Below, in pieces: positions 8,142 through 39,428 of a DNA stretch of 61,745 nt (the first letter of the stretch is position 1; each line of letters opens with the position of its first letter). The notes beneath the pieces were generated by a model. That model searched no databases. It saw only the letters and a program-made list of their open reading frames with translations, and had not been told where the DNA came from. The position numbers and the translations under genes are program-made. Source of the stretch: Deltaproteobacteria bacterium GWA2_38_16 (GTDB taxonomy: Bacteria; Bdellovibrionota; JACOXK01; 2-02-FULL-40-11); the NCBI GenBank assembly GCA_001797335.1, contig MGPE01000003.1:1-61745 (forward strand), given 5' to 3'.

Positions 8142-8144
8142 AAA

Positions 8145-9915: not shown

Positions 9916-11271
9916 ATGCCTGAGAGGCTACTGGAACTATCTATTTACGCATTGGGAGCTTTAATTGGGATATTGTTAATTTGGGCTATCTTGCGGGAAT
10001 TACTCATTAAAGTGTCATCTTCAAAAGAAGAAAAACGAGAGCTTCAAACTAAAAAACTTTTTGAAGAATGGCTCTACGGGAATGATATCAAACGAAAAGT
10101 CATTATCCAAAAACTTAAAAAAATGGGTTCTGCTGCTTATCTTGAACCCTTTTTCTTTGAGCTCTTTGAAGGATCTGAGAAAGAAAAAAAAGAAGAATTA
10201 AAAGTTCTATTTGAATTGGTGGGTATACAGGCTGAACTTCGGCGGATTTTAAAAGAGTCTTCAGATGTGATTCAGCGAGAAAAATCTGTTTTAAAATTGG
10301 GAAAAGTAGGGGTTATTTATGATGTTCAATTTTTAATTGATGCTTATAGAGATCCTGAAGAACATAGTTTGGTAAAACAGTGTTGCGTCCAAGCTATTTA
10401 TGATTTGGTAGAACCTCTATTTCACGAGCAGGAACAAGCCATGGCTAATTTTGGACTTTTGGTTCAGCTCTTTGATATTCCCAATGAAAATTTAAGATAT
10501 CATTTGGTCAGAACCATTGCTGCTTCAAAAATGCCTGTTGAAGATATTTTGCCTCATTTATTGAAACTTCAAAATGATTTTGGAAAAGAAAGTGCTCTAT
10601 TTGTGTTAGAGCAGTGGAATCATCCAGAGCTCTGTCAGATTGTCTATGATTATTTGGATGATTTAAATCCTCACATCCGATCTATCGCTGTCTCTCTTTT
10701 GGGAAAATGGAAGGATGAAGAGGCTATTCTTCTTCTTTTTAAGAAGTTATCTGACCCCGATGAAATGGTTCGCCTTTCGACGGTAGATGTGCTGACTCAT
10801 TTTAAAAATTCAGCTATTTTAAAACAGCTGACGCTTCACTTAAGTGATCCTTCTTCTCTGGTAAGGGCAAGATTATTATGGGCGTTGGTATTAAAAAAAG
10901 ATCAAAAGATTTTTGATCGAGCTATTGCCATGCTTCAAGAAATGGATTTTCAAAAACTCTTTTTTGCTCAGATCAAGCTCAAGCCTCAAGAAGAATCTCA
11001 GCAGGTTTTTGAATTTTTAGGGGTAGATTATCGATTGTTTGTGAAAAAATATGGAGTAGAAGATCATGGGTTTTCAGCATTTGTGAGCACAGCACGAGAA
11101 AGTCAGGACGTGGCTCTTCGAAAAAGAGCCATGATGGCATTGCAGCTGTGGAAAGATAAAGATGTTATTTCTGTTTTTAACGACATTTTAAATTCAGACC
11201 CTGATCCTACGAATCGTCTTTATGCCAAAAAAATGTTGGAGCGTTTAAAGATGAAGGATGTGGTACCATGA
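9916..11271 (+). CDS. Membrane-anchored HEAT-repeat protein
   Basis: A 451-residue protein with a single N-terminal transmembrane helix (residues about 9-30) followed by a charged linker and helical repeats through to the C-terminus. HEAT-like units with the proline/aspartate signature are seen (DLNPHIRSIAVSLLGKW, DPDEMVRLSTVDVLTHF, DPSSLVRARLLWALV, DPTNRLYAKKML). The repeats probably form a cytoplasmic scaffold at the inner membrane. It opens an operon that overlaps into the transporter gene by ATGA, so it may tether or regulate the glycan synthase or the importer. The start has a GAAGGGA site 9 bases upstream. The precise role is unknown. Confidence 0.8.
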   Translation: MPERLLELSIYALGALIGILLIWAILRELLIKVSSSKEEKRELQTKKLFEEWLYGNDIKRKVIIQKLKKMGSAAYLEPFFFELFEGSEKEKKEELKVLFELVGIQAELRRILKESSDVIQREKSVLKLGKVGVIYDVQFLIDAYRDPEEHSLVKQCCVQAIYDLVEPLFHEQEQAMANFGLLVQLFDIPNENLRYHLVRTIAASKMPVEDILPHLLKLQNDFGKESALFVLEQWNHPELCQIVYDYLDDLNPHIRSIAVSLLGKWKDEEAILLLFKKLSDPDEMVRLSTVDVLTHFKNSAILKQLTLHLSDPSSLVRARLLWALVLKKDQKIFDRAIAMLQEMDFQKLFFAQIKLKPQEESQQVFEFLGVDYRLFVKKYGVEDHGFSAFVSTARESQDVALRKRAMMALQLWKDKDVISVFNDILNSDPDPTNRLYAKKMLERLKMKDVVP

Positions 11272-13439
11272 AAAAAAATATATTTTTTTTCATGTTTCTT
11301 TTTTCTTCTGTGTCTTTTGTGGCTTTGGCGGCAGATCTTCATGTTTGGCAATTTAGTATGGATGAAGAACAGTCTCGGTTTATTGTCGAACGTTTTGAAA
11401 AAGAAAATCCAAATATTAAAATTCACCTCCAACAATTAAGTTGGGATTTTGGAAACGATAAAATTATTACAAGCATGATAGCGGGTAATGCTCCGGATAT
11501 TTTTGAAATTGGATCAACGTTTGGCCCTCACTTTTCTCAAAGTGGTGTACTTCGAGATCTTACAGAAGAGGTGAAAGATCTAAAAGATAAATATCTCATG
11601 TGGGAACCCGTGACGCATGAAGGTAAAATCTATGGAATGCCATGGCTCGTGGGAACGCGATTTTTATTTTATAATAAAGTATTATTTAAAAGAGCGGGTT
11701 TGGATCCTCATCATCCTCCTAAAACATGGTCAGAACTTCTTTCGGCAGCAGAAAAGATTAAAAATCTTGGGCCAGATATGTATGGGTATGGAATTTCTGT
11801 AGCGGAAGAATTTTCTCCATGGCAAACGTTTATCCCATATTTATGGAATGGGGGGAGCGATGTTTTGTCTTTAGATCTCAGTCAGACCATTTTAAATAGC
11901 AGGGCTACACAGAATACGCTTTCTTTTTATCGTCAGTTAAAATCTTTTTCTCTTCTTAATCGCCAAGAACAAATTGATCAGATGTTTTCTGCTGGAAAAG
12001 TAGGCATCATGCTGTCTGGCGCTTGGAATTTTAAGTCCATTGCCAAAACAAATTCATTATTAGAGTACGGGGTGACAACCGTACCCACGCCCGAAGAGCA
12101 TCTGCCTCCTTATTCTTTTGGAGGAGGAGAGATGTTGGTGATTCTTAAAAAGAGTTCTTATCCAAAAGAAGCTTTTACTTTTGTGCAATATTTAACTTCC
12201 AAAGAAGTGGAGATTTTTTTATCGAAAGAGCAAAGAAATGTTTTGCCTTCATTAAAAGAAGCTTTAAATGATCCCTTTTTTTCCAGCGACTTTAGAATGA
12301 AAGGTTTTTCAGAACAAATGCGTTTTACCAAAACTCCCCCAGCTCATATCGGGTGGATAAAAATGGAACGTGTTTTATCTTCGATGATTGACCAAGTGAT
12401 GTTGCAAGAAGAGCCCATTGAAAAAGCTATTCAAAAAACGTCTTTGGATATTGACCGTATCCTTCAGGAAACTCATGAAAAAGGAGAAATTTCAGATAAA
12501 AAACTGACTGTGTGGATTTTATTATTAATAGTAATTTTATTTTTAGGATGTTGGTTTTTCCGAAATCGACTGGAGCCTATTGGGGCCTTTTCAACGTGGA
12601 TCTTTATTTCTCCATGGATTTTACTTTTTTTGATTTTTAGTTTGTATCCGTTGCTGTATGCTTTTCTCATTAGTTTTTCAAGTTATCATGTATTAACTTC
12701 TCATCTTTCTTTTATTGGGATTCGAAATTATATTGAAATTTTAAAAGACTCAGAATTTAGGAAAGCATTATATCATACGCTCTTTTTTGCTGTGGGAACG
12801 GTTCCTTTTACGCTGGTTATTTCTATTCTTTTAGCAACCCTTATTGATCATGGAAAAGTTCCATTCAAATCTCTTTTTCAGGCAGGATTTTTCTTGCCAG
12901 TGGTAACTTCTATTATTGTTATTGCCACTCTTTTTACTTATTTTTATTCGGAAAATGGTTTTTTAAATTTTATATTAACAACGCTTTACCTCCCAAAACC
13001 AGATCCTTCGTGGCTCATTCATAAAACGTGGGCATTGCCAGCGATTATGGCTATGGCAGTGTGGTCTAGCTCGGGTTATTATCTCATTTTATTTTTGGCA
13101 GCTCTTCAGTCGATCCCTCAATCTTTGTATGAGGCCTCAAGGCTGGATGGAGCTAATGCGGTTCAGCAATTTTTTAAGATTACTCTGCCTCAACTAAAGC
13201 CCATGATTTTATTTGTGGTGGTGATTAATACGATTAATTCACTTCAAGTATTTCCAGAAATTTTTACAATGACCAAAGGGGGACCGGCCAGATCGACGAC
13301 AACAATTGTGTATTATCTCTACGAAAAGGGGTTTAGTGAATTTAAAATGGGTGAAGCATCTTCAGTAGCCTATCTTTTAGCGCTGATCATTTGTGCGTTT
13401 TCATATTTTCAGATGCGCCTGCTGAGGGAAAAAATATGA
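11268..13439 (+). CDS. Sugar-binding protein fused to MalF-type ABC permease
   Basis: A 723-residue fusion. Residues 1-21 are a signal peptide (cleavage after VALA); about 22-400 form an extracellular solute-binding protein family 1 domain (DEEQSRFIVERFEKENP, PWLVGTRFLFYNK, GAWNF). A transmembrane helix near 408-430 then leads into a CUT1 MalF-like permease with six predicted helices and the EAA loop EASRLDGANAVQQFFKITLPQ. The receptor would therefore be permanently tethered to the channel in the periplasm. The reading frame is continuous with no sign of a missed stop. Its partner permease overlaps by ATGA. No ATPase is encoded here, so a shared MsmX/UgpC-type ATPase elsewhere is likely. Confidence 0.9.
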   Translation: MKKNIFFFMFLFSSVSFVALAADLHVWQFSMDEEQSRFIVERFEKENPNIKIHLQQLSWDFGNDKIITSMIAGNAPDIFEIGSTFGPHFSQSGVLRDLTEEVKDLKDKYLMWEPVTHEGKIYGMPWLVGTRFLFYNKVLFKRAGLDPHHPPKTWSELLSAAEKIKNLGPDMYGYGISVAEEFSPWQTFIPYLWNGGSDVLSLDLSQTILNSRATQNTLSFYRQLKSFSLLNRQEQIDQMFSAGKVGIMLSGAWNFKSIAKTNSLLEYGVTTVPTPEEHLPPYSFGGGEMLVILKKSSYPKEAFTFVQYLTSKEVEIFLSKEQRNVLPSLKEALNDPFFSSDFRMKGFSEQMRFTKTPPAHIGWIKMERVLSSMIDQVMLQEEPIEKAIQKTSLDIDRILQETHEKGEISDKKLTVWILLLIVILFLGCWFFRNRLEPIGAFSTWIFISPWILLFLIFSLYPLLYAFLISFSSYHVLTSHLSFIGIRNYIEILKDSEFRKALYHTLFFAVGTVPFTLVISILLATLIDHGKVPFKSLFQAGFFLPVVTSIIVIATLFTYFYSENGFLNFILTTLYLPKPDPSWLIHKTWALPAIMAMAVWSSSGYYLILFLAALQSIPQSLYEASRLDGANAVQQFFKITLPQLKPMILFVVVINTINSLQVFPEIFTMTKGGPARSTTTIVYYLYEKGFSEFKMGEASSVAYLLALIICAFSYFQMRLLREKI

Positions 13440-14245
13440 AGAAGATAATCTTATTTTTATTTCTATGTTGTCTTCTCGTCATTTCCCTTTTTCCTCTTTG
13501 CCTCATGTTTACGACGGCCTTTAAACCTGAAGGAAATCTCCTCATGTCGATGAATGAGCTTTTTCCAAAACAGTGGACCGTAAAAAATTTTAAAGATGTA
13601 TGGGCAGCTGGCCCCTTTGATCAATATTTTTTAAATAGTGTATTTGTCGGGATATGTGTGACCCTTGGAAATATTATTTTTTCTTTGATGGTGGCCTATG
13701 CGTTTGCCAGAAGAGAATTTTTAGGGAAAAAGCTTTTTTTTGGAACGGTACTTCTCATGATGATGATCCCAGCGCAAACCATCATGGTGCCCACCTTTAT
13801 TTTAATGAAACATTTTGGGTGGCTTAATACCTATTGGGCGTTAATTGTGCCTTCGCTCGTTTTGCCCTTTAACGTATTTTTATTAAAACAGTATTTGCAT
13901 CAATTACCCTTAAGTCTTGAAGAAGCGGCAAAACTCGACGGTGCCAGCGATTTTCAAATTTTGTTTAAAATTGTAATGCCTCTTTCAAAGCCTGCGTTGG
14001 CCGTTGTGGGGATTAATACTTTTTTAGGTGCATGGAATACTTTTTTATACCCATTTTTACTGACAAATACGACAGAAATGAGAACGCTGCCCGTGGGATT
14101 AGCGCTCTATAAAGGACTTCATGGGGTGGATTGGGTTCATCTCATGGCCGGAGCAGCTTTGTCTTCTGCTCCTGTGATTCTTATTTTTCTTGTCTTTCAA
14201 AAAATGATTATTAGAGGCTTAACCGCCGGAGCCATAAAGGAGTGA
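13436..14245 (+). CDS. MalG-type carbohydrate ABC transporter permease
   Basis: A permease of about 269 residues, the second membrane subunit of the CUT1 sugar importer. It has six hydrophobic segments and the EAA motif EAAKLDGASDFQILFKIVMPLSKPA that contacts the ATPase. I take the start at 13436, where ATG overlaps the stop of the fused receptor/permease; an upstream ATG at 13391 would add 15 residues that do not resemble a membrane N-terminus. It is followed after 3 bases by the GH94 phosphorylase, so imported sugar is probably a phosphorolysis substrate. Confidence 0.92.
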   Translation: MKKIILFLFLCCLLVISLFPLCLMFTTAFKPEGNLLMSMNELFPKQWTVKNFKDVWAAGPFDQYFLNSVFVGICVTLGNIIFSLMVAYAFARREFLGKKLFFGTVLLMMMIPAQTIMVPTFILMKHFGWLNTYWALIVPSLVLPFNVFLLKQYLHQLPLSLEEAAKLDGASDFQILFKIVMPLSKPALAVVGINTFLGAWNTFLYPFLLTNTTEMRTLPVGLALYKGLHGVDWVHLMAGAALSSAPVILIFLVFQKMIIRGLTAGAIKE

Positions 14246-14248: not shown

Positions 14249-16636
14249 ATGTTTATTAAAAAACCAAAATTAGAATTAAAGACGGCTTGGGGATTCTTTA
14301 ATGAACAGCATGAGTATGTGATTACACGGCCAGATACCCCAAAACCGTGGATTAATTATTTGAGTAACAGCCAGTATCATGCCTTGGTATCGCAAACAGG
14401 AGGAGGCTATAGTTATTATAAGGATTCTAAATTACACCGAATACTACACTGGGAAAATTTTAGATCCGATCGTCCAGGGCGTTATGTATTTATAAAAGAT
14501 CAAAAAACGGGGGAGGTGTGGACTCCCAATTGGCAACCTTTGTGTAAGAGACTCGATTATTGGCAGGCTACTCATGGTTTTGGATACAGTTCTATTTATG
14601 CAGCACATCAAAATATGGAAGCGACTCTCACCTATTTTGTTCCTCCCGAAGCTTCCTGTGAAGTGTGGGTTACTACTTTTAAAAATACAAGTTTAGAAAC
14701 AAAAACTCTTTCCATTTATCCCTACGTGCATTGGCTTTTGGGAGATTTTTACATGGAGCAGGATCATAAAAATATTATGGTTCTCTATAATGAGGGATAT
14801 TATGATCCAGCTCTTCAGTCGATTGTGGCTTTTAAGCATCCCAATAGTAGTCGAAAATATGAAACGTATGGATTTTTTGCCAGCTCTCTAAAACCTTCTG
14901 GTTATGAGTTAAATTATGAAAAATTTGTTGGAAAGTATGGGAGCATATCAAATCCTAAAATGCTAAAAAAGGGGAAGCTTTCTTCAGAGCCTGTTCGGGG
15001 AGAAGAGATGGTGGGAGTAATGGAAATTCCTCTGACCTTAAAACCACAACAAGAAGTAACCTGTGTTTTTGTTTTAGGCTTTACAGAAAAAAAATCAGAC
15101 ATTGAAAAAATCATTAAGGATCATGTGAAGCCACAAGAAGCCAAGCATCTTTTACAAAAGACAAAAGTGATGTGGGAAACTAAATTATCTGGAATGAAAG
15201 TTGAAACCCCTGATCCCCAATTTAATCTCATGACGAATTTTTGGGGAAAATACCAATTATTGCACATTACACGGTGGCGATCGGCGTCTTTTTATAGCCC
15301 CGGAGAAGGAGGAAGGGGATATCGAGATACGGCTCAAGATGTGGAAGGAGTGGCATCGATTGATCCCTTTTTATGTCGAGAGTGGATTGAACGGCTTTTG
15401 ACTTATCAATATAAAAGCGGACATGCCGTGGCTGGTTTTTCAGATATTGAAGGGCCATGGGAAATTGGAACGGACAAAGGGATTTTAGGGAAAAGTGATG
15501 TGGCCGTGTGGATTCCTTTTATGGTGTCTACCTATGTCAAAGAAACAGGAGACAAAGATTTTTTACAAAAAGAGATTTCATTTTTAGACGGAGATAAGGC
15601 TTCCGTATGGGAGCATTGTCTTAGGGCCATGGAACATTTTTGGAAGAGTCGAGGAGAACATGGCTTGCCTCTTTTTTGGAAAGCCGATTGGAACGATGCT
15701 TTGGATCGATGTGGAATTCAAGGAAAAGGAGAATCTGTTTGGTTGGGGCAGGCGTATGCACGAGCTTTATTATGTGTAGAGGAAATGGCTTTGTGGTTGG
15801 GAAAAAAAGAAGATGAAGCACTCATGCATTCTCGATATGAAGAAATGAAAAAAATTATTAATGATGTGGGGTGGGATGGAGATTGGTATCGGTGTGTTTT
15901 TACTGACTCTCAAAAAATTTTAGGATCAAAAACAGGTGAGGCCAATCGAGTGTATTTAAATACACAATCGTGGGCCATATTATCCAAGGTTGCCCCAGAG
16001 TTACGAGCTGAAAAATGTTTTCGTGCTATTGAAGAGCACTTGGAAACAGAAATGGGTCCGGCCATGTTTTCTCCCTATTATACCCAATATGATCCCCAGA
16101 TTGGACGAATGACAGCCTTTGCGCCGGGGACGAAAGAAAATGCGGCTATTTTTTCTCATGCGTGTGCATTTCTCATTGTAAGCTATGCGATGAGTAAAAA
16201 AGGAAAAAAAGCCTATGAACTTTTTACAAAAATTGCTCCTTATAACCCTGCCAAAACAGTAGAGCGATACCAGACAGAACCCTATGTGTATGCCGAATAT
16301 TGTTATGGTCCTGGAAATGCTCAGTTTGGAATGGGAGCGTTTAACTGGAATACGGGGACAGCGGCGTGGATGTTTATTGCGGCAACGCAGTGGATGGTAG
16401 GGGTGAGGCCAGTGTTTGAAGGATTAATGATAGATCCCTGTGTGCCTTCTCATTGGAAAACATTTTCTATAGAACGGGCCTTTCGAGGAGCGCTCTATAA
16501 AATTCATATTGAAAATCCAGAAGGCGTGGAGAGTGGGGTGAAGGAAGTGACGGTGGATGGGAAGAGAATAGAAGGGAATGTTATTCCTCAGATGCCGGCG
16601 GGAAAGGTTTATGAAGTTCATGTGCTAATGGGATAA
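14249..16636 (+). CDS. GH94 glycoside phosphorylase (cellobiose/chitobiose phosphorylase-like)
   Basis: A 795-residue cytoplasmic enzyme of the GH94 (former GT36) family, which cleaves beta-linked di- or oligosaccharides with phosphate to give a sugar 1-phosphate. The N-terminal beta-sandwich carries the family motif EYVITRPDTPKPWINYLSN followed by GGGYSYY and DRPGRYVFIKD; the (alpha/alpha)6 catalytic domain has the general-acid Asp in WKADWNDALDR near residue 479 and a GTASWM-like end (NTGTAAWMF). No signal peptide is present. Which linkage it acts on (beta-1,2, 1,3, 1,4 or GlcNAc-based) cannot be read from the sequence. It sits between the sugar importer and a glycan synthase. Confidence 0.9.
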   Translation: MFIKKPKLELKTAWGFFNEQHEYVITRPDTPKPWINYLSNSQYHALVSQTGGGYSYYKDSKLHRILHWENFRSDRPGRYVFIKDQKTGEVWTPNWQPLCKRLDYWQATHGFGYSSIYAAHQNMEATLTYFVPPEASCEVWVTTFKNTSLETKTLSIYPYVHWLLGDFYMEQDHKNIMVLYNEGYYDPALQSIVAFKHPNSSRKYETYGFFASSLKPSGYELNYEKFVGKYGSISNPKMLKKGKLSSEPVRGEEMVGVMEIPLTLKPQQEVTCVFVLGFTEKKSDIEKIIKDHVKPQEAKHLLQKTKVMWETKLSGMKVETPDPQFNLMTNFWGKYQLLHITRWRSASFYSPGEGGRGYRDTAQDVEGVASIDPFLCREWIERLLTYQYKSGHAVAGFSDIEGPWEIGTDKGILGKSDVAVWIPFMVSTYVKETGDKDFLQKEISFLDGDKASVWEHCLRAMEHFWKSRGEHGLPLFWKADWNDALDRCGIQGKGESVWLGQAYARALLCVEEMALWLGKKEDEALMHSRYEEMKKIINDVGWDGDWYRCVFTDSQKILGSKTGEANRVYLNTQSWAILSKVAPELRAEKCFRAIEEHLETEMGPAMFSPYYTQYDPQIGRMTAFAPGTKENAAIFSHACAFLIVSYAMSKKGKKAYELFTKIAPYNPAKTVERYQTEPYVYAEYCYGPGNAQFGMGAFNWNTGTAAWMFIAATQWMVGVRPVFEGLMIDPCVPSHWKTFSIERAFRGALYKIHIENPEGVESGVKEVTVDGKRIEGNVIPQMPAGKVYEVHVLMG

Positions 16637-16644: not shown

Positions 16645-19254
16645 ATGAGAAAAATATGTGGGTATGAGTGGGTGGCGCCAAAAGAGAGGCTCCGCCGCCG
16701 CGCCCGGAGCGTATGCGAGGACGGACGGTGGAGATTGTCTTTTGGCGACAGGACCCGGAAGATCATATTTTTGTCCCTATGTTTTTGTTTTAGCTCTTTA
16801 AGTTGGGCACAGAAGAACCCTCTATGGCAAATCCAAAAAGAACTTCAAGTCGGTGGTTCTGATATTCCGGTGGTTCCCCTGAAAGCCCAAAAAGCTCTCT
16901 GTGAACTTTCAGAGAAGACAGGAGTGTATAAAATTCTTTTTAATACCTTAGGCGGAAATGAGTGTAAGATAAAAATTCCCCTTCAACCTGTCATCCCGAG
17001 CAAAGCGAGGGATCTCAGTCACAGTGCACTCTTGGCTTTTCGAATTCGAGGGGAAAAAGATGTTCAAAATTTTAATGTAGGATTAGAGGCGAACGGTCAC
17101 ATTGAATACGTTGGTCCCATTTTAGAATATCTTCCCTTTTCTGTCATATCTTCTTGGACGCAAACCGGAATTCCCATTCGGGAATTTGAAGCGAAGGGGG
17201 CCAGTGTTTCCCAAGCGCAATTCCTCGTGTTTGATTTTAATGAGCCGGCTGAGGGAGTTTTAGAAGTAAAAGATGTGGTTTCGGTTCCTCGAAAATCTCA
17301 TTCAGAGCATTGGGACCCCGTGGTTATTCTTCTTTCTCAGTATGATTTAAAACGAGTCAAAGACATTAAAACAATTTCAATGGGACACTATGGCCAAGAG
17401 TTTGGTTGGAAAGTAGGCCAATTGTATCATCATTCCCCTGAAAAATCGTTTTCATCGGGGAAAATTGATATGGGAATGCTTAAGAGTATCCCTCCAACGA
17501 TTGTCGATGGATACGCTAAGATAGCGGATTTCAATAATGGACTTGAAAATCAAGTAGGTGGATTTTTTAATGAATTCCAAAAAGCACCTTCTAAAAGTTT
17601 TGTAACGCTAAATCCAACCATTTTTCGTGGTTCTGTGGGGAGAAGTTTAGAAATTATTTATGAAAAAGAATCTCAAGGATTTTGTGGGGCCTGGGTGCAT
17701 TTTTTTGATTTTAAAAAACCTCCTAAAGAAAGAATCTATTTAGATGCTACAAAGCTTCAGTATTTATCTTTCTGGGTTCGAGGAAAAGAGGGGAAAGAAG
17801 ATGTGTCCATTCAGTTGGCCGATGCCAGTTGGGAAAAAACAGAAGACTCTGTGTATTATGGAAAAATATCTGATTATTTGAAAGGGGGTATTACGACAGA
17901 ATGGCAACGAGTCTTGATACCACTTAAACAAGAGTTTTATAAAAATCTCCACTTTAAAAAATTAGCGGGATTAACTTTTAATTTTCGAGAAAAATCTAAA
18001 GGGACTCTGTATGTGGATGATGTGGCTTTTTTAACGTCTCGAGATTCTTCGCCTTGGGTCAGTGACCCTTCGGCTCAGAATGACAGGGGGGAGCCGGAGA
18101 AGGTGAGTAAAAAGCTCTATAAAGCCATGTGGCTTTGGCATACCGTTCGTCAACTTAAAAATCCAAAAGCTCAAGATGAGTTTTTTAAATTCTGTACTCA
18201 AAATGGCGTTAATCTTATTTTCTTTCAGCTTCAATATGAACTTCAGAAAAAAACAGATGGAACGTATGGCTGTATTTTAAAATATGAGCCAGAGCTTCGA
18301 AAGTTTATTGCTCGTGCTTCTTCTTATCAAATTGAGGTGCAAGCCCTGGATGGATTTAGTCGCTTTGCCTTAAAGCCTTGGCATGAAAAAGTGTATGCCC
18401 AGATTCGATCGATTATTGAATATAATAAACGTGTTTCTTCATCGGAACGCTTTACGGGGATTCATCATGATAATGAGCCTTATTTGATTCCCTCTTATTG
18501 GGGAGTTATTCGCGAAGGGGTCATGAAGCAGTATCTAGAATTGTGTGAAAAATCACAAGCGTTGGTTCAAAATTCAGGCCTTTCTAATTTTGTATTTGGG
18601 GTAGATATCCCTTTTTGGTACGAGGAGGCGAATTTTGATTTTGAAGTTCCCGTTGAAATCACTTGGCGAGGAGTTCGAAAGCCCGCTAGTTTTCATATCA
18701 TTGATATTGTCGATAATGTGGGGATTATGGATTATCGCACCAAAGCGTATGGAGCAGATGGGACCATTGTTCATGGAAGGAATGAAATTTATTATGCCAA
18801 TTCGGCTGGTAAAAAAGTGTTAGTGGGGATTGAAACCTATCCCTTGCCTCATGAAATTTTTGCTATTTTTAGATCCAACCAGCCCGTTCAACTGGCCAAT
18901 CTTTCCCAAAAAATTCAGTTAGATCCAAGACAGCTTTTTATGTTTTTTGATCAATATCAAGAGCTAGGCATTGCCTATATGCGTCGATTTCGAGAAGATT
19001 TAAAAGATACTCCAGAAAGTATTTCTAAAGAAATTTTTAAACTTAAAATTCAAGATAAAGAAGTCATTTTAAAATCAGAAATTGCAGTAGATGTGCCTTC
19101 TTCAAAATTATCTTTTTCTGGGATGAATAAGGATTATTTTTTAAGTATTTATGAGGATACGCAAAACTACTTTATGCATGAGCCTAGTTTTTTTGGAATG
19201 GCGATTCATTATTATGAAACCTATCGACAGCTCATGGAAGGACCTTCTTCATGA
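16645..19254 (+). CDS. Large secreted carbohydrate-active protein with CBM-like and barrel-like parts
   Basis: An 869-residue protein of unknown exact function. Residues about 38-56 (IIFLSLCFCFSSLSWAQ) are a signal peptide preceded by an abnormally long Arg-rich n-region made by a GC-rich palindromic insert. Two jelly-roll-like regions follow; the second (about 320-470, ending GTLYVDDVAFL) looks like a CBM11/CIA30-type carbohydrate-binding fold. The C-terminal third, with GIHHDNEPYLIP near residue 607 and later HEIFAIF, looks like a TIM barrel with an Asp/Glu pair that could be catalytic. Two short dispersed repeats are embedded in frame (16990-17016, 18041-18084). A TTG at 16736 behind GGTGGAGA is an alternative start. 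It overlaps the GT2 gene by ATGA. Confidence 0.75.
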   Translation: MRKICGYEWVAPKERLRRRARSVCEDGRWRLSFGDRTRKIIFLSLCFCFSSLSWAQKNPLWQIQKELQVGGSDIPVVPLKAQKALCELSEKTGVYKILFNTLGGNECKIKIPLQPVIPSKARDLSHSALLAFRIRGEKDVQNFNVGLEANGHIEYVGPILEYLPFSVISSWTQTGIPIREFEAKGASVSQAQFLVFDFNEPAEGVLEVKDVVSVPRKSHSEHWDPVVILLSQYDLKRVKDIKTISMGHYGQEFGWKVGQLYHHSPEKSFSSGKIDMGMLKSIPPTIVDGYAKIADFNNGLENQVGGFFNEFQKAPSKSFVTLNPTIFRGSVGRSLEIIYEKESQGFCGAWVHFFDFKKPPKERIYLDATKLQYLSFWVRGKEGKEDVSIQLADASWEKTEDSVYYGKISDYLKGGITTEWQRVLIPLKQEFYKNLHFKKLAGLTFNFREKSKGTLYVDDVAFLTSRDSSPWVSDPSAQNDRGEPEKVSKKLYKAMWLWHTVRQLKNPKAQDEFFKFCTQNGVNLIFFQLQYELQKKTDGTYGCILKYEPELRKFIARASSYQIEVQALDGFSRFALKPWHEKVYAQIRSIIEYNKRVSSSERFTGIHHDNEPYLIPSYWGVIREGVMKQYLELCEKSQALVQNSGLSNFVFGVDIPFWYEEANFDFEVPVEITWRGVRKPASFHIIDIVDNVGIMDYRTKAYGADGTIVHGRNEIYYANSAGKKVLVGIETYPLPHEIFAIFRSNQPVQLANLSQKIQLDPRQLFMFFDQYQELGIAYMRRFREDLKDTPESISKEIFKLKIQDKEVILKSEIAVDVPSSKLSFSGMNKDYFLSIYEDTQNYFMHEPSFFGMAIHYYETYRQLMEGPSS
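16676..16747. repeat. GC-rich nested palindrome inserted at a gene start
   Basis: Outer arms CGCCAAAAGA (16676-16685) and TCTTTTGGCG (16738-16747) pair perfectly and enclose a very GC-rich core with an inner hairpin GCTCCG (16689-16694)/CGGAGC (16705-16710). Its base composition is unlike everything around it. It lies between the first codons of the 16645 gene and the hydrophobic core of the signal peptide, giving an Arg-rich peptide when translated. Confidence 0.7.
16990..17016 (-). repeat. Dispersed palindromic repeat inside a coding region
   Basis: A 27-base unit which, read on the minus strand, starts GAGATCCCTC and ends TCGGGATGAC, and matches the unit in nnrD (58420-58446) at 23 of 27 positions. 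Its length is a multiple of three and it adds the peptide VIPSKARDL to the 16645 protein without breaking the frame. Confidence 0.75.
18041..18084 (+). repeat. Dispersed palindromic repeat inside a coding region
   Basis: The unit starts GAGATTCTTCG and ends CTCAGAATGAC with a central hairpin GGGTCA-G-TGACCC. The same ends occur in the intergenic element at 51292-51362. It is translated as a Ser/Asp/Pro-rich loop right after the second carbohydrate-binding-like domain of the 16645 protein, a likely interdomain linker. Confidence 0.7.
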
Positions 19255-20777
19255 TGACAGCCATTTTCTTTATTGTTTATTTTTTGCAAGCTTCCATCAT
19301 TGCCTATTTAATTATCTATGACGCGCTGTCTTTGATTTTATTTTTTGTAGCGACGTATAAAATTAAAAACTATGTCCGTTGGGGAAGGGTGTCTAATCTT
19401 AATTTACTCTACGATCATCCCGGACTTCCTTCGGTTTCTTTTTTAATGCCAGCCTATAATGAAGAAAATGCCATTGTGGAAAGCATTAAGTCTCTTATGA
19501 ATCTTCATTATCCCTGTTTCGAGATCATTATTATTAATGACGGATCGACAGATTCTACTTTTAGGCGAGTTAAGAACGCATTTTCCTTTGAGCCTTTTTT
19601 AGGCTCTTATTCATCGACTTTAGGGACTGAAAAAGTACTGGGTATTTATGAAATTCCAAGACAAGAACTAAGGGACAAACCCAATATTGTGCGTATCATT
19701 TTAATAGACAAGAAAAATGGAGGCAAGGCAGATTCTTTAAATGCGGGCATTAATATTGCCCAGCATTCTTATGTTTGCAGTATGGATGCCGATAGTTTGA
19801 TGGATAAACAAGCACTTCTGATTGGAATGAGACCTTTTTTAGATCATCCCGGATATGTTGTAGGTGTAGGAGGGCAAGTAGGAATTGTTAATGGTTGTAT
19901 CGTTGAAAAAGGGAAGGTTCTAAAAGTGGGATTACCTAAGAAATCAATAGAGCGATTTCAAATTGTAGAATATGCCCGATCCTTTAATATAGGACGAACG
20001 GCACTGGCGACTTTAAATTCCCTCGTTGTACTTTCAGGTGTTTTTTCTATTTTTAATCGTGAACTTCTTTTAAAAATCGGGGGCTATTTAACCAAAAACA
20101 TGAAAACAGAAGTGGGCCTTCGATATTGTGGGGCCGTGGATACCGTATGTGAAGACATGGAAATTGTGGTGCGCCTGTATCGATATATTCAAGAAAATAA
20201 AATAAAGGCTAAGATAGAATATCTTCCTTTCCCCCTAGCGTGGACAGAAGCTCCTGCCAGCTATGTTAATTTAGGAAAGCAACGAAATCGGTGGTATCGA
20301 GGATTGATGGAGTCTTTATGGTTTCATAAGCGCATGCTCTTTAATCCCTTTTATGGGAGAACCGGGCTTTTTGCGATGCCCTATCAATTTATTTTTGAAT
20401 TTTTAGGACCGTTGTGTGAATTTTTGGGCTATGTGAGTTTACCTATTTTTTATGTTTTAGGCTATATCCACACACCCTATTTAATTTTATTTTTATTGCT
20501 GGCTATTGTGTATGGGATGTTTTTGTCAGTGCTGACGTTACTCGTAGGGATGTGGATTGGGCCAGGCTATAAAACGGAGTATGGGAACTATAATATTTTC
20601 TTTTCAACCGGCCTTAAGGACATATTATTATTGATATTTTTTGCTCTCTTGTCTAACATTGGATATAGGCAGTATTTGATGATGTGGCAGGTTAAAGGAT
20701 TTGTGGACTTTCTTAAAGGCAAAAAATCTTGGGAAAAGTTCGAACATACCGGTTTTCAGCAGTCATCCTCTTCTTAG
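19251..20777 (+). CDS. Processive family 2 glycosyltransferase (glycan synthase)
   Basis: A 508-residue inner-membrane glycosyltransferase of the PgaC/cellulose synthase/hyaluronan synthase type. Hydrophobic N-terminal segments (about 1-38) precede the GT-A domain with PAYNEEN, INDGST (about residue 95), MDADS (about 178), the catalytic base region CEDMEIVVRLY and the processivity motif QRNRWYRG (about 344-351). At least three membrane segments close the protein. No PilZ domain is visible. The product is a beta-linked polysaccharide of unknown monomer. It overlaps the TPR/barrel gene by 49 bases, consistent with synthase and exporter made together. Confidence 0.9.
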   Translation: MMTAIFFIVYFLQASIIAYLIIYDALSLILFFVATYKIKNYVRWGRVSNLNLLYDHPGLPSVSFLMPAYNEENAIVESIKSLMNLHYPCFEIIIINDGSTDSTFRRVKNAFSFEPFLGSYSSTLGTEKVLGIYEIPRQELRDKPNIVRIILIDKKNGGKADSLNAGINIAQHSYVCSMDADSLMDKQALLIGMRPFLDHPGYVVGVGGQVGIVNGCIVEKGKVLKVGLPKKSIERFQIVEYARSFNIGRTALATLNSLVVLSGVFSIFNRELLLKIGGYLTKNMKTEVGLRYCGAVDTVCEDMEIVVRLYRYIQENKIKAKIEYLPFPLAWTEAPASYVNLGKQRNRWYRGLMESLWFHKRMLFNPFYGRTGLFAMPYQFIFEFLGPLCEFLGYVSLPIFYVLGYIHTPYLILFLLLAIVYGMFLSVLTLLVGMWIGPGYKTEYGNYNIFFSTGLKDILLLIFFALLSNIGYRQYLMMWQVKGFVDFLKGKKSWEKFEHTGFQQSSSS

Positions 20778-22777
20778 CATTTCTCTTTAGTTTTCATCTG
20801 GCTTTTCCTCAGGATTTTTCAAAAGACATTGATCATTATCGAAAGCTGGTTAGAGAAAACCCCAATAATATTGAAGCACTGGTGCAGTTGGCCAAGTATT
20901 TGAGTTGGAGTGGACGATGGGATGAATCTATTGATATTTATAAAGAGGCCTTAAAAAAACAACCGGGGAATGTCGATGCGGAACTTGGCTTAGCGGCTGT
21001 TTATTCTTGGCAAAAAAAATATTCTGAATCCATTCGACTTTATAAAGGGATTTTAGCAAAACATCCGGATCATATAGATGCCATGACAGGATTGGCCAGA
21101 GTCTATAGCTTTCAAGGCAGTCATACTCAATCCATTCAAATCTTTCAAAAATCTTTAAAATATGATTCTGAAAATAAAGAATCTTTATTGGGATTAGGTC
21201 GAGTGTATAGCTGGAATAAGCAGTATGTGGAGAGCGAAAAAGTATATCGTAAACTTCTCCAAAAATATCCAAAAGATCCAGAAGTGCTTAAAGGGTTAGC
21301 CGATACGTATAAATGGAGTGGGCAATATACCAAGGGCATTGATATTGAGCTTAAGATCTTAGAAATGACGCCTAAAAATATAGATAGCCATATATCAATT
21401 GGGTATATGTATGGGGAATTAGGTGCCATTAAGCAAAGTATTCATTGGTATGAAAAAGCCGCTAAAATTGATCCCGAGCGGGGAGATATTCAGGCCCATT
21501 TAGGGATGTTATATAGCCACACAGCTCAAGTGGATGCGGCTGCTACTGCTTTTAAAAAGGCCATTTCGCTGCAAGAACGAGATATCCAAAGTTATATTTC
21601 CTTGGGACGCGTGTATAGCTGGCAAAATAAAATAGAGGAATCCGAAAAGCTCTATAAGAAAGCGTTAGAAATTAACCCTCAAAGTGCGGGAGCATATGCT
21701 GGACTAGGACAGCTTTACTTTTTTAATGGGCAGTGGAGAAAATCAATTGAATATTACAAAAAAAGTTTATCCATTGATCCTTCGTATGTGGAATCGCTTC
21801 AAGGGTTAAAACGGGTGAGTCTTTTAAAAGCGCCGGTGTATATTACCCGATATAATTTATTTGTGAATAATTACCACAGTGCGTTGACCAATCAGTTAAC
21901 CAATAAAGAATATCAGCATGTGTTTTCCCATGAGCTTACTTATAAATTTGATGCCAATAAGTTGATCGAAGCCAGGGCACTGCTGACCCAATATGCTTCT
22001 AGGGATGCTGAGACCGGTTTTCGAGATTATCTTTATAATGAAAAAATTATGTCTTTAAGGCTGGATTATCCTGTGTGGAAAGATCGACTTTTTTTCTCTG
22101 GAAGGTATGATCAGGAGCTTTTTGAAAATGCCGGCCATCCTCATACCTATAATTTCCGCACTGATGAATGGTTTTCGTCTGGATATAGTTTACTTCGATA
22201 TGAAAAAGGTCCTTTCTTTTCAATTCTTTCTTTTTCCGCTGAACCCAACGTAACTACTCGAGCCGGTGGAACGCTGAATGTAGATCATTTGGCTAGTTAT
22301 GGGATTTCTTCTAGTTATGATTTTAGTGAATATCTTTCAACAATTGCGACATTCTTTTTTAATGATTATACCAAAGGAACTCGGGATCGCAGAGATTGGA
22401 AGGGGATTATCAATTATCGTCTGCCATTTTTTAAGAATTTGGAGCTGGGGTATGAGATGCGGTTTAGAGATCATCCGGCAGAATTGACCCGTTCGGGCAC
22501 ATTTCGACTTCAGGAGCGGTTTTTAAAAGATAAGCTTTTGGTGGAGGGACTGTATCGACTGGATTCTGTCATTGCGAGTGAAAACTATGGGATGACAAAT
22601 AAACATATTTTTCAAACTTTTATTTCCTATCCTTTATTGGATTGGGTGATTTTAACAACTGATACGACGTTTCAAATTAATAAGGGAGCAGATCCTGATA
22701 ATTTTAAAGCCTTTCGGCACTATATTACTTTTCTCTTAGACTGGAAAGCCGTGCGGGGAGGCTACTACAAAGACTGA
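20729..22777 (+). CDS. TPR protein with outer-membrane beta-barrel (polysaccharide exporter type)
   Basis: A 682-residue protein with a signal peptide (about 1-28, cleaved after AFPQ), roughly ten tetratricopeptide repeats (residues about 30-365; units such as DAELGLAAVYSWQKKY and GAYAGLGQLYFFNGQW), and a C-terminal region of alternating aromatic strands (about 367-682) that resembles a YaiO/BcsC/PgaA-type outer-membrane barrel. This layout is known from exporters that move polysaccharide across the periplasm and outer membrane. The start is a TTG inside the GT2 gene; it is the only in-frame start that precedes the signal peptide. It is probably the export partner of the GT2 synthase. Confidence 0.82.
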   Translation: MGKVRTYRFSAVILFLAFLFSFHLAFPQDFSKDIDHYRKLVRENPNNIEALVQLAKYLSWSGRWDESIDIYKEALKKQPGNVDAELGLAAVYSWQKKYSESIRLYKGILAKHPDHIDAMTGLARVYSFQGSHTQSIQIFQKSLKYDSENKESLLGLGRVYSWNKQYVESEKVYRKLLQKYPKDPEVLKGLADTYKWSGQYTKGIDIELKILEMTPKNIDSHISIGYMYGELGAIKQSIHWYEKAAKIDPERGDIQAHLGMLYSHTAQVDAAATAFKKAISLQERDIQSYISLGRVYSWQNKIEESEKLYKKALEINPQSAGAYAGLGQLYFFNGQWRKSIEYYKKSLSIDPSYVESLQGLKRVSLLKAPVYITRYNLFVNNYHSALTNQLTNKEYQHVFSHELTYKFDANKLIEARALLTQYASRDAETGFRDYLYNEKIMSLRLDYPVWKDRLFFSGRYDQELFENAGHPHTYNFRTDEWFSSGYSLLRYEKGPFFSILSFSAEPNVTTRAGGTLNVDHLASYGISSSYDFSEYLSTIATFFFNDYTKGTRDRRDWKGIINYRLPFFKNLELGYEMRFRDHPAELTRSGTFRLQERFLKDKLLVEGLYRLDSVIASENYGMTNKHIFQTFISYPLLDWVILTTDTTFQINKGADPDNFKAFRHYITFLLDWKAVRGGYYKD

Positions 22778-22817: not shown

Positions 22818-23633
22818 ATGAGAATAAAGCAGGCTCCATTGATATTACATGAGAGAAGAGTTAATATTAAATTAGTAGAACGTGTGTTGATGTGGGTGGT
22901 CTTGGTATCCGCTCCAACTCAGGATATGACCCGTTCTTATGATACAGTTTTTAGAGAAAGTGGACATTTGGAATATAGGATTAGCGGAGGAAACTTAAAA
23001 CCGAGTACTCCTTTTGAATGGGAGAAAAAAGTTGGACTTCGAAAGCTCTATCTCATCTGGAGTGGAGCTAAAAAAGTGGAGGTAAATGGTACGGAAATAA
23101 GAGCCCAAAAAATTTATACAATAACGGAACAGAAGACAGAGATAATGGCAGCAATTTCAGAAGTGAGTTCTGTTTTTAAGAAAGAAGGAATGTATACGAT
23201 TAAAGGGATCGATATGAAAGAAGCTCCTTTTCAAGGCTACGCAGTGATTGAAGTAGTTGAAGAAGCAAAGGCTCCCTTAAGAGAAATTGTGGTGAAAGCA
23301 GGAATGGCACGACTAAAACCGGGAGAACTCTATACCGTAGAGATGTTGGAAAAAGGAGAAAAGGGGAAAAAAGGAATGATTAGCCGATTTTCAGTGATCG
23401 GTGGGAATGGAAAAGCTGGAAACGGCAGTTCAAATTTATTAAATGGGGTTACTGTCAGTGGAAAGGATGATTGGGATGGTTCGAGTGGGATAAGGTGGGA
23501 TATAGATGATTACGATGTCAAAGAATTTAAGATTTTGTCAGAAAAAGGAGTGAGGTGGTCGATGGATCCTCTACTTCAGTGGCTTTATCCGATTGGAGCG
23601 GTGGTTCAGATCGACCTAGAAGAAGGAAGGTGA
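22818..23633 (+). CDS. Unknown exported or periplasmic protein in exosortase operon
   Basis: A 271-residue protein that I do not recognise. A short hydrophobic stretch (VLMWVVLVSA, about residues 23-32) could be a signal peptide with a long basic n-region, so the true start may be a later codon near 22884-22890. The body is rich in beta-type sequence, and near the C-terminus a Gly/Asp-rich stretch (NGSSNLLNGVTVSG, then DDWDGSSG and WDIDDYDV) could be a calcium-binding or jelly-roll edge; weak resemblance to DUF3344-like domains is felt, not proven. It lies 5 bases before the PEP-CTERM-like gene with a shared GGTGAGG site, so the two are likely co-translated. Confidence 0.65.
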   Translation: MRIKQAPLILHERRVNIKLVERVLMWVVLVSAPTQDMTRSYDTVFRESGHLEYRISGGNLKPSTPFEWEKKVGLRKLYLIWSGAKKVEVNGTEIRAQKIYTITEQKTEIMAAISEVSSVFKKEGMYTIKGIDMKEAPFQGYAVIEVVEEAKAPLREIVVKAGMARLKPGELYTVEMLEKGEKGKKGMISRFSVIGGNGKAGNGSSNLLNGVTVSGKDDWDGSSGIRWDIDDYDVKEFKILSEKGVRWSMDPLLQWLYPIGAVVQIDLEEGR

Positions 23634-23638
23634 GGACC

Positions 23639-24040
23639 ATGAAAAAGATACTCTTTACAACGATGGTGATGGGATTATTCCTCATCATGCAGGGAAGTTA
23701 TACAATTGCCGAGGAAATTACTCGAAGTGTTTCTACTCCCAATGTGCAAGCTTCTGGAACCGTGAGTAATACTGCTACGGCCACAACCGGTGCAACGGTT
23801 ACCCGAGAACCGGGTCAAGTGACGATTAGTGGGATTGCTTCTGCGGTAGGAGTGGTCGACACAAGAACCGTGCAAGGATCTGCCAGTGGAACGTTAAGAA
23901 TCCGATGGGGGAGAGGAACACTGGAACGACAACCTATGCTTCCTCCAGGTGCGCCTGAAATGAATGGGCTTTGGATGTTTGGAGTTGGATTTGTGGTATT
24001 TGGATTTGGTTTGCTGCGGACTCGAAAATATCTATGGTAA
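23639..24040 (+). CDS. Small exosortase substrate with PEP-CTERM-like tail
   Basis: A 133-residue secreted protein: signal peptide 1-24 (MKKILFTT to YTIA), a mature part of only about 80 residues rich in Ser, Thr, Ala, Gly and Val without Cys, then a C-terminal tripartite signal of Pro106-Glu107-Met, a hydrophobic helix (about 111-126) and a basic end RTRKYLW. This is the layout of PEP-CTERM sorting signals removed by exosortases. The gene overlaps the exosortase start by 7 bases, so it is very likely the dedicated substrate. Many Ser/Thr residues could be glycosylated. The start at 23639 has GGTGAGG just before it; an upstream in-frame ATG lies within the previous gene. Confidence 0.8.
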   Translation: MKKILFTTMVMGLFLIMQGSYTIAEEITRSVSTPNVQASGTVSNTATATTGATVTREPGQVTISGIASAVGVVDTRTVQGSASGTLRIRWGRGTLERQPMLPPGAPEMNGLWMFGVGFVVFGFGLLRTRKYLW

Positions 24041-24876
24041 ATAAAGCAGGAGCAGCATTGGTGATTCTTCTCTGTGCTGCTCTTACGTATGTGTTGTTTG
24101 GTTCTTTTTTTCAATATCTATGGCTGACGTGGAAAATGGATCCCTTTTATGCCCATGGGGCTGCGATTGGTGGTCTTAGCATTTTTCTCTATTTTAAATT
24201 TATTTGGGAACACAGATCTTCTTCTATTTTAGGATTATATCAACAAAACATTCTTTTTTCACTTTTGTATTTTTCCCTATTTCTTTTTTTCTTTGTATTT
24301 GGAATTAAAACCCATCTTCCTTTTTTAGGGGGGATGGCCTTTGTATGTTGGTTTATCGCGCTTCAGTGTTTATGGTTTGACCTTTCTTTTTGGAAGGAAT
24401 TTTCATTTCCTGGAGTTTATTTTTTATGGGCGGTGCCTTTGCCGTATCTATCGGAGTTTTCAGGTAGGCTTCAGATCGTTATTGCTTCTCTCTGTGCATC
24501 CATTATTCGTGGTCTGGGTTATTCTATTATTCAAGACGGAATCCGGCTACAATTACCCAATGCCAGTTTTCAGATTGCGTCAGATTGTACGGGAATTAAA
24601 TCATGGCTTGTCCTTTTTTCTCTAGCATCCTTTTTTCTTTATTTTTTAAAGATACGTTTTCAGACAAAACTCATGATTTTTGTAAGTCTTTTGCCTTTGG
24701 CTTTTGTGGTTAATCTCATGAGAGTAACTGTTTTGATTCTGGTTGGGCATTACGCGGGCGAGGTGATTGCTATGAACTATTGGCATGATTTTTCAGGAAT
24801 CTTTTTTTACGGTGTATCAACGCTTTTAATTCTGGGGATTTCAGGGTGTCTTATAAAATTTTTCGACTCATTTTAG
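24034..24876 (+). CDS. Exosortase (exosortase/archaeosortase family)
   Basis: A 280-residue multi-pass inner-membrane cysteine protease-transpeptidase. The three family residues are present in order: Cys185 in SDCTGIKSW, Arg230 in VNLMRVTVLI and His251 in YWHDFSGIFFYG. Eight or so hydrophobic segments surround them. Exosortases process PEP-CTERM-type tails at the periplasmic face. I chose the ATG at 24034, which overlaps the substrate stop; an ATG 63 bases upstream would lie wholly within the substrate gene. The 3' end overlaps the EpsI fusion gene by 31 bases. The subfamily (XrtA-type letter) cannot be assigned by eye. Confidence 0.9.
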   Translation: MVNKAGAALVILLCAALTYVLFGSFFQYLWLTWKMDPFYAHGAAIGGLSIFLYFKFIWEHRSSSILGLYQQNILFSLLYFSLFLFFFVFGIKTHLPFLGGMAFVCWFIALQCLWFDLSFWKEFSFPGVYFLWAVPLPYLSEFSGRLQIVIASLCASIIRGLGYSIIQDGIRLQLPNASFQIASDCTGIKSWLVLFSLASFFLYFLKIRFQTKLMIFVSLLPLAFVVNLMRVTVLILVGHYAGEVIAMNYWHDFSGIFFYGVSTLLILGISGCLIKFFDSF

Positions 24877-26864
24877 CATTAACTCTATTATTGGGTGGGT
24901 TAATTTGGGTAAAACATCGTTATTTTGAACCCGATTTTTCTATCAAGATTCATTTTAAAGATTCTTCTATTCAAGCTCCTTATCAATTTATTGCGGATAC
25001 TTCTTTATATCCTTTTTCTTCGTATGAAGGAAAAATGGCAGCCAGTAGTAATTTTTTTTCAGAAAAATTTATTTCGTACTTTCCATCGGTATTGGGAGAT
25101 TGGGTTGGGAAAGATATTGAACATCAGTATGCAGATATCAAGCTTTTTCGTCTCTATCATCATCAAAAGACCAACGATGATTTATGGCTTATGATGGTTT
25201 ACGGAGCGCATGAAAGTCAATTTCACTCTGCTGAAGTGTGCTACATGAGCGATGGCTGGGATGTAGCGGTGAGGGATATTAAAAAGGTGATGACAGATCA
25301 AGGAACATTTCCCATTCGATATATGATTGCTCAAAAAGGGAATAACATGCATTTGGTGGCATATTGGTATCTCTGGGGAAATCCGAGGCGACGGATTCAA
25401 GAGGGAACATTACTCTTTAGAATTTCTATTGAGCTTCGAGATCAAGAAGAGCGTGGTCAAAAAGCACTGATAGATTTTATGACTCGTCTCATGAATGTAG
25501 TGATGGAAGAAGAAAAGCCCATAGTCCCTGCCTTGGTTCAGACCATTCCCCAAAAGACAACGCTTCCGCCCGTTCAGGTAACTTCTTCTTTTTCGAGGGC
25601 TAAAGAAAAAGCACTGAACTGGATTTTAAATCAAAAAGTGCCAAATACCATAGTCCCTTTTCCCGAAATGGACCGGCGGTATTTTTTATTAAGCTATGAA
25701 CTCAATTCTAAAAATCCAAAAACTCAAAATGATAAAAGCTATCCCTATATTTATAGTCGCGCAGCCATTTACGACAATGCTTTAGGGGTCATTGCCTTTA
25801 CTCAAGCGCATCGTTACACCGAAGCAGAAAATGTGATGGATGCTTTTGAGAGGGTAGTGGGAGAGGATGGGAGCTTATGGTTTAGCTACAATACCCATAA
25901 TGAATGGCCATCTGAGAGCGATCACAGTGAAGCTACCCTTCGAACGGGGGCGAGTAGTTGGGGTGGGTATGCAATAACATATTATTTAAGACAAAAACTA
26001 TTAGAAGATCCTTCTTTTACTCATACCAAATCTTTTAAACGTTATGAGAGTTTAGCTCGAAAAATTTTGGATCGTCTTCTTCAAGAGCAGATTGTAGATG
26101 AGAAAGACCCCAGATTTGGATTCATAACCGGAGGGCAGGGAAGGCACGAGCTGGTATTTGATGAAAAGAGCCGTAAGGTAATTGAAAAATTTAAAGATGA
26201 AAAAATTACTTGGGCCAGTATTGAGCATAATTTAGATGCCTATTTTTTATTGAAGAATATGGAAATTCTCACCCATGATCCAAGATATAAAAAAGCCAAA
26301 GATCTTTTAAAAGAGGCCTTACTTTCTAAAGCCTGGAATGAAAAAGAAGGGCAGTTTAATCGAGGGGTGAGAAAAGAAGAAATAGATTCTGCTATGGCCC
26401 TAGACTGTGCGTCTTGGGGGATTTTATTTTTACTATCCATTGGAGAAAAAGAAAAAGCCAGACAGGCCATGAACGCTATGGAGCGTTATTTTATTCAAGA
26501 TCCCATTCGAGGCGTTTGGGGGTATCGCCCTTATTATGCCGGATTTATTTATGATGAAATGTCTATAAATAAACTTTTTTATCCGCACTGGCCTCAAAAA
26601 AGTTGGAGTGATATTCCGATGGTCTGGTCAGAAGGGTCCCTAGGGGTTGCTATGGCGTATCTCAAGATGGGTGAAAAAGAAAAAGCAAAATCAATTCTAG
26701 AAGAAATATCAAAAATGCAAATGCCTTCTGGAGGATTTCAGTACGCTACCCAAGAAATCCCATTTCAATTTTCACCCTCGCCCTCCATGGCAGGTACTGC
26801 CTGGTTTGCAATGGTCGCTTTAGCCCTTGAAAACGAAACGCTTTTAAAGCTCTTTTGGGACTAA
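24846..26864 (+). CDS. EpsI-domain protein fused to an alpha/alpha-barrel glycosidase-like domain
   Basis: A 672-residue protein with a GTG start. A signal-anchor helix (about 5-23) is followed by an EpsI domain (to about 230): LGDWVGKD and the family motif around His127-x4-Cys132 with Gly137-Trp138 (HSAEVCYMSDGW), and WYLWGNPRRR. EpsI proteins accompany exosortases. From about 265 onward the sequence is a helical repeat region with IYDNALGVIAF, WASIEHNLDAYFLL, MALDCASWGILFL and WSEGSLGVAMAYL, spaced as in six-hairpin (alpha/alpha)6 glycosidases or lyases. Such a fusion suggests that glycan handling and exosortase action are physically joined in the periplasm. It ends the operon. Confidence 0.82.
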   Translation: MSYKIFRLILALTLLLGGLIWVKHRYFEPDFSIKIHFKDSSIQAPYQFIADTSLYPFSSYEGKMAASSNFFSEKFISYFPSVLGDWVGKDIEHQYADIKLFRLYHHQKTNDDLWLMMVYGAHESQFHSAEVCYMSDGWDVAVRDIKKVMTDQGTFPIRYMIAQKGNNMHLVAYWYLWGNPRRRIQEGTLLFRISIELRDQEERGQKALIDFMTRLMNVVMEEEKPIVPALVQTIPQKTTLPPVQVTSSFSRAKEKALNWILNQKVPNTIVPFPEMDRRYFLLSYELNSKNPKTQNDKSYPYIYSRAAIYDNALGVIAFTQAHRYTEAENVMDAFERVVGEDGSLWFSYNTHNEWPSESDHSEATLRTGASSWGGYAITYYLRQKLLEDPSFTHTKSFKRYESLARKILDRLLQEQIVDEKDPRFGFITGGQGRHELVFDEKSRKVIEKFKDEKITWASIEHNLDAYFLLKNMEILTHDPRYKKAKDLLKEALLSKAWNEKEGQFNRGVRKEEIDSAMALDCASWGILFLLSIGEKEKARQAMNAMERYFIQDPIRGVWGYRPYYAGFIYDEMSINKLFYPHWPQKSWSDIPMVWSEGSLGVAMAYLKMGEKEKAKSILEEISKMQMPSGGFQYATQEIPFQFSPSPSMAGTAWFAMVALALENETLLKLFWD

Positions 26865-33871: not shown

Positions 33872-33884
33872 CGTTTCTCCCTTT

Positions 33885-35291: not shown

Positions 35292-35313
35292 ATATATACG
35301 TACCTCCGATTAT
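35274..35313 (-). repeat. Duplicated leader sequence, copy 1
   Basis: Forty bases identical to 36927-36966. The unit covers the first signal-peptide codons, tandem ATGATG start, an ATATATATA spacer and the ribosome binding site GGAGGT. In this copy it also includes the stop codon of the upstream paralogue. Confidence 0.85.
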
Positions 35314-39354: not shown

Positions 39355-39382
39355 TTGACAAAATAAAGTTGTCGGGTACAAT
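39355..39382 (+). promoter_or_regulatory. Sigma70-like promoter of the PTGW-repeat gene
   Basis: TTGACA (39355-39360) is followed by a 16-base spacer and TACAAT (39377-39382), 46 bases before the start at 39429. An inverted repeat GACAA/TTGTC spans the -35 and spacer, so a regulator could bind here. Confidence 0.6.
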
Positions 39383-39428
39383 TTTAATTAACAAACGGTA
39401 CGTTTTAGGAAGCAGGAGGAATAAAGCA

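Follow-up and report, generated by a model that had tools for sequence, protein, structure and literature searches.

What exosortases join their substrates to, and why they reside in polysaccharide loci, remain questions in the literature (PMC12188702, PMC11980579), and these are hard to approach elsewhere because the targets in a genome that encodes PEP-CTERM proteins often number twenty or more (PMC3237569). The attachment of exosortase substrates to polysaccharide is a published proposal (PMC12188702). One locus in a stretch of 61,745 nucleotides (hereafter the window) from Deltaproteobacteria bacterium GWA2_38_16 (contig MGPE01000003.1, positions 1 to 61,745 of the forward strand) raises the question in a small form: does its exosortase serve a single protein, here called SUB, and would that protein meet the glycan made by its neighbours? 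Spread over 19 contigs, the source genome adds up to 2.0 Mb, with a listed completeness of 100%; all features of the operon given below lie on the (+) strand. A compact co-directional operon that also encodes a GH94 phosphorylase, a processive GT2 and a TPR exporter-like protein ends with SUB, the exosortase and an EpsI fusion. With a little better than an even chance, the locus is a dedicated exosortase module integrated in an operon for synthase-dependent polysaccharide production, in which SUB would be attached to, or would anchor, the nascent polysaccharide.

The candidate substrate and its sorting tail

SUB (23639..24040) is a candidate dedicated substrate of 133 amino acids, with an N-terminal hydrophobic signal, a mature part of around 80 residues (27% Ser/Thr) and a tail (23936..24037) formed by a Pro-Glu motif, a transmembrane (TM) helix and a basic end (PPGAPE-TM-RTRKYLW). 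Based on its sequence and on hydropathy, from which signal peptides and TM helices were called, it combines a signal peptide with the tripartite sorting layout of motif, TM helix and basic end. An earlier sequence-only reading of this locus by a model had described a 133-residue, Ser/Thr-rich protein with a mature part of about 80 residues, whose gene overlaps the exosortase gene by 7 bp, which in turn overlaps the EpsI fusion by 31 bp; the coordinates found here (23639-24040, 24034-24876 and 24846-26864) and the composition agree with that description. The same reading had called the tail PEP-CTERM-like. This holds for the layout, but the PEP-CTERM models of Pfam and NCBIfam fail to match. 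Indeed, no Pfam or NCBIfam model was over cut-off for SUB, and a PF07589 search of the source genome returned nothing even at E<=10. Canonical PEP-CTERM membership was rejected for want of a PF07589 or NCBIfam match.

Relatives of SUB, 40-49% identical, occupy the same position in four genomes of the same family, and the tail layout recurs at more distant loci. SUB is therefore not a chance open reading frame (ORF), and this explanation was rejected. Across 13 aligned tails, a Pro and a Glu (P-x3-E), a Met (E-x5-M), a Gly and an Arg are invariant, giving the common pattern P-x3-E-x5-M...G...R. The part around P-x3-E reads PPGAPE in the window's family, PPEVFE in genome G006, DPQVDE in genome G084 and either PPTVSE or PPTVAE in Nitrospinaceae. 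A profile built from these 13 rows was run on eleven genomes and gave strong matches (E<=4.3e-10) in 10 of them, all beside an exosortase, with the best other match at E=0.012. In G387, a genome outside this set, a tail protein is located in the same place beside the exosortase.

The sequence-only reading had proposed scanning the genome for further PEP-type tails, many of which would speak against a dedicated pair. None was found by PF07589 or by the tail profile, and SUB itself is the only match of both the SUB profile and the tail profile in the source genome; as these searches rely on profiles, tails unlike them and unlike PF07589 could escape detection. Single-target sorting enzymes have been described as dedicated systems (PMC3237569), and the source genome likewise has one target, adjoining its enzyme. 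The Nitrospinaceae loci L029 and L031 carry tandem targets, with three SUB genes (7853-9067) and two (8248-9052), respectively, and the last SUB of each tandem has an extremely Lys/Arg-rich mature part.

The exosortase

The exosortase gene (24034..24876; 280 amino acids) starts with an ATG at 24034, giving the 7 bp overlap with SUB, and is the only one in the source genome. It is well over the superfamily cut-offs, with 130.6 vs 25.7 bits for PF09721 (8.4e-38) and 60.4 vs 23 bits for TIGR04178, and Cys185, Arg230 and His251 are located as the earlier reading had claimed. That reading had also suggested a comparison with subfamily hidden Markov models, where an already described subfamily would count against it. 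None of the named Xrt, cyanoexosortase or archaeosortase models of NCBIfam was over cut-off (XrtA, the best, 92.6 vs 208 bits; XrtV 89.7 vs 313 bits), and the related exosortase at L031 is also below the XrtA cut-off (129.5 vs 208 bits). Assignment of the window enzyme to a named subfamily was rejected on these sub-cut-off scores.

In a 10-row alignment, Arg230 is invariant and His251 nearly so; Cys185 is kept in six of the ten rows and replaced by Ser in the other four. The Ser-type enzymes belong to Nitrospinaceae and G084 (EPSSGIQS, PASSGIRS), keep Arg230 and His251, and each adjoin a P-x3-E tail protein (L029:9064-9891, L030:304-1128, L031:9046-9873, L033:9120-9956 and L112:4199-5080). In the Nitrospinaceae phylum, other exosortases retain the Cys; the tails near them are VPEPS or TPEPHE. 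At L115:4770-6946, in the same phylum, a TPEPHE-tailed protein directly precedes an exosortase and EpsI, an apparent one-to-one pair. Genome G007 has no tail of the SUB type; its sole exosortase is an orphan (L020:10239-11105), in which Phe takes the place of Cys and which has neither a substrate nor EpsI in its vicinity.

The EpsI fusion and its barrel domain

The EpsI fusion (24846-26864) has a GTG start and overlaps the exosortase by 31 bp. The EpsI domain takes up approximately residues 1-215 (24846..25490), carries an FHxxExCY motif and is over cut-off for both TIGR02914 (45.1 vs 42.8 bits) and PF11984 (56.9 vs 26.1 bits; 2.9e-15). The C-terminal half, residues 245-672 (25578..26864), models as an (alpha/alpha)6 barrel with pLDDT values mostly 80-97 in the helices and lower in the loops. 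Foldseek returned glycan-active enzymes as the best matches of this domain, MmpH being the best-covered target (TMt 0.73), which suggests a glycan-enzyme-like domain. The similarity is one of fold: no known glycoside hydrolase family was recognised by sequence, no Pfam family was over cut-off and no sequence relative was found in the PDB.

In genomes G164 and G098 the gene immediately following GT2 encodes the barrel domain by itself, and in G165 (L060:7901-10729) the domain is fused to the GT2; no exosortase was seen at these loci. Fused to EpsI here, fused to GT2 in G165 and adjoining GT2 in G164 and G098, the domain therefore bridges both branches. This shared domain is the strongest indication from sequence that protein sorting and glycan production work jointly. 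In addition, the trees of GT2 and of the EpsI-barrel protein split alike, with the window's family and G006 on one side and Nitrospinaceae and G084 on the other.

Recurrence of the unit

Ten further genomes have the unit p271-SUB-exosortase-EpsI: four belong to the Nitrospinaceae phylum, five are relatives and one is a deeper member of the window's phylum. A unit unique to the source genome was thus rejected. The records carrying related loci include groundwater Deltaproteobacteria metagenome-assembled genomes (MAGs) and three Nitrospinaceae/Nitrospina MAGs; several of the relatives are incomplete MAGs. Among genomes of the same family, G005 has the order GT2-TPR-p271-SUB-exosortase-EpsI fusion complete, and G001, G003 and G004 show it on shorter contigs, with p869 and GH94 also present where the contig reaches. 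In G006, the gene order is kept with changes, and there are two exosortase loci and one SUB. G084 belongs to the window's phylum and shows the order HEAT-GT2-p271-SUB-exosortase-EpsI fusion. L029 and L031 show HEAT-GT2-p869-TPR-p271-SUB-exosortase-EpsI fusion with their tandem SUB genes, and in G387, the fourth Nitrospinaceae-phylum genome, a short contig carries p271-SUB-exosortase-EpsI fusion.

The sequence-only reading had taken one substrate, one enzyme and one EpsI as a unit with the glycan synthesis genes, and the present results support this. The link of the unit to glycan is strengthened because the synteny spans distant lineages and the barrel domain occurs fused to GT2. The reading fell short in the membership of the unit, as it had left out the conserved p271, and the Nitrospinaceae loci have tandem SUB genes instead of one.

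The protein p271 (22818..23633) is an all-beta protein (GNGSSNLLNG..DWDGSSG..WD..DPLLQW; model pLDDT 80). A survey of 369 genomes of the window's phylum gave eight stand-alone copies in seven genomes, all at these exosortase loci. Four further matches, weaker ones, lie as domains within large surface-type proteins; p271 is related to the N-terminal domain of such proteins. No Pfam family was over cut-off, and comparison with the PDB gave weak, uninformative all-beta matches (TM-score about 0.25).

Glycan-branch and neighbouring genes

The putative processive polysaccharide synthase GT2 (19251..20777; PF00535 2.5e-21) carries the DGSTD, DAD, ED and QRxRW motifs. The processive-synthase residues DGS.D, D.D, ED and QRxRW are invariant across 8 aligned rows, and a GT2 profile matched chondroitin, cellulose and hyaluronan synthases in the PDB. 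It is followed by a TPR protein (20729..22777), a PgaA-like exporter candidate with a partial match to the PgaA model (4.4e-20). Its TPR part is clear by Pfam, and the C-terminal region reads by eye as an outer-membrane barrel, without a model match. Upstream, p869 (16645..19254) combines a CBM30-like domain (PF21582 3.5e-11), the sole portion recognised in searches, with a conserved domain without assigned family; it is retained in Nitrospinaceae at 35-39% identity to the L029 and L031 proteins.

The co-directional run is opened by a HEAT-repeat protein (9916..11271; PF13646 6.6e-24), and HEAT proteins are also found upstream of GT2 in G084, in Nitrospinaceae and at the exosortase-less loci. 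Next come a sugar-type ABC importer (11268..14245; PF01547 5e-44, PF00528 7.9e-15 and 2.7e-19), with a second permease reaching to 14245, and the GH94 phosphorylase (14249..16636; PF17167 4.9e-96), which is cellobiose/chitobiose phosphorylase-like and has cellobiose phosphorylases as its closest PDB relatives (1.6e-131). The first importer gene (11268-13439) encodes a single polypeptide that joins a solute-binding protein to an ABC permease. Because GH94 is near cellobiose and chitobiose phosphorylases and the importer is located upstream, the pair suggests a beta-glycan and its salvage; it is seen only in the window's family. Promoter and terminator scans gave results at chance level.

Elsewhere in the window, three tandem lipoprotein-like genes (32489-36944) each have a Cys-Gly-rich start, and two of them look paralogous. 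A small protein (39369-40031) contains repeated QPIPTGWLY-like units, and a transposase-like ORF, by eye of the integrase core type, is present at the contig end (60602-61648).

Proposed mechanism and alternatives

As suggested by their families, GT2 would make and extrude the glycan and the TPR/barrel protein would export it. SUB would be exported by Sec and kept in the inner membrane through its tail. The exosortase would then recognise the P-x3-E tail, cut via Cys185 and hand the new C-terminus to an acceptor. Beside it, the EpsI-barrel fusion would bind or trim the glycan, leaving SUB joined to, or anchoring, the nascent polysaccharide. We infer the cleavage, the acceptor, the identity of the glycan and the anchoring.

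Several observations weigh against this mechanism. The mature parts of SUB are wholly different by lineage (Ser/Thr-rich, Asp/His-rich or Lys/Arg-rich) and the tail is shared; the tail is therefore a sorting-signal layout on variable cargo, and such mature parts fit tagged cargo that varies better than they fit a conserved role in glycan binding. The second locus of G006 (L018:7571-9928) consists of p271, an exosortase and an unfused EpsI, without a SUB gene, and the G084 locus lacks the p869 and TPR genes. The Nitrospinaceae loci lack GH94 and the importer, both of which look catabolic. Finally, the Cys mechanism may not operate in the Ser-type exosortases.

Conventional PEP-CTERM-like sorting is rather unlikely here: cleaved SUB would be an envelope-anchored or released matrix protein in non-covalent contact with glycan, and the proximity of the genes would reflect co-regulation. 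In other systems, PEP-CTERM proteins make the contact of the cell surface with polysaccharide more stable (PMC12188702), and the low-complexity mature SUB sequences suit such a role, but the fusion of EpsI to a domain elsewhere fused to GT2 argues for a coupling tighter than co-regulation. A further reading is protein-glycan conjugation, in which the exosortase would cut SUB at the P-x3-E tail and move its C-terminus directly onto the polysaccharide of the operon's synthase, with EpsI-barrel presenting the glycan end and the Nitrospinaceae branch using Ser for Cys; this is regarded as doubtful.

A small protein with a membrane tail, encoded in tight overlap with the exosortase gene, could also be a membrane subunit of the synthase or export complex (a PgaD- or BcsB-like helper), the exosortase governing assembly or turnover and not surface sorting. 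This is improbable given the tripartite motif-TM-basic sorting layout, with a motif kept across lineages, and the exosortase-less GT2/barrel loci, where the synthase seems to manage without SUB. Least credible is that p271 is the functional surface protein and SUB a short adaptor, cleaved to hand over p271 or glycan. It is true that p271 is better conserved than mature SUB, is present at the G006 locus that misses SUB and shares kinship with the N-terminal domain of large surface-type proteins; p271 itself, however, has no sorting tail, and no fusion or structure ties it to SUB.

Relation to known systems and significance

A literature search turned up the dedicated-system concept and a parallel in XrtG, and did not find this operon. 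According to PMC12854382, XrtG of lactobacilli comes with one CTERM protein and two glycosyltransferases. Because this system and single-target systems (PMC3237569) were already described, the window unit is a variant of dedicated exosortase systems. XrtG of Lactiplantibacillus resembles it in that a single gene unit encodes one CTERM protein, one exosortase and glycosyltransferases (PMC12854382), and the window GT2 partially matches the XrtG-associated GT2 model (76.8 bits, far below the cut-off of 364). However, the XrtG host is Gram-positive, no EpsI, TPR exporter or p271 is named there, and the NCBIfam matches of the window include no XrtG or Firmicu-CTERM match. With the XrtA/EpsH-type PEP-CTERM system (PMC1569441) the window shares the exosortase superfamily, EpsI, nearby polysaccharide genes and the tripartite tail; it differs by its one target, its PF07589-unmatched tail, its XrtA score (92.6 vs 208 bits) and its barrel-fused EpsI. 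Bcs cellulose and Pga poly-N-acetylglucosamine secretion likewise combine a processive-type GT2 with a PgaA-type TPR protein, but the window GT2 and TPR protein are below the CelA, PgaC and PgaA cut-offs, and the exosortase, EpsI and SUB are extra. The XrtP-associated glycosyltransferase (NF053846) is also an exosortase-linked GT2, for which the window protein scores 26 bits vs a cut-off of 520. On the best reading, what is new here is that a dedicated exosortase in a Gram-negative setting comes with a tail of its own, with p271, with an EpsI-barrel fusion and with a glycan operon of the synthase type.

The window offers a closed set made up of a single enzyme, a single small substrate, a single EpsI and a single glycan synthase. 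With this set, and with a shared domain that one lineage has fused to EpsI and another to the synthase, the linkage is therefore directly testable in a reconstituted system. For the catalytic mechanism, nature provides a test of its own in the Cys-to-Ser replacement that one branch conserves. As a unit with its own unnamed sorting tag in two distant uncultured groups, the locus is a compact place to study the connection between protein sorting and polysaccharide export.

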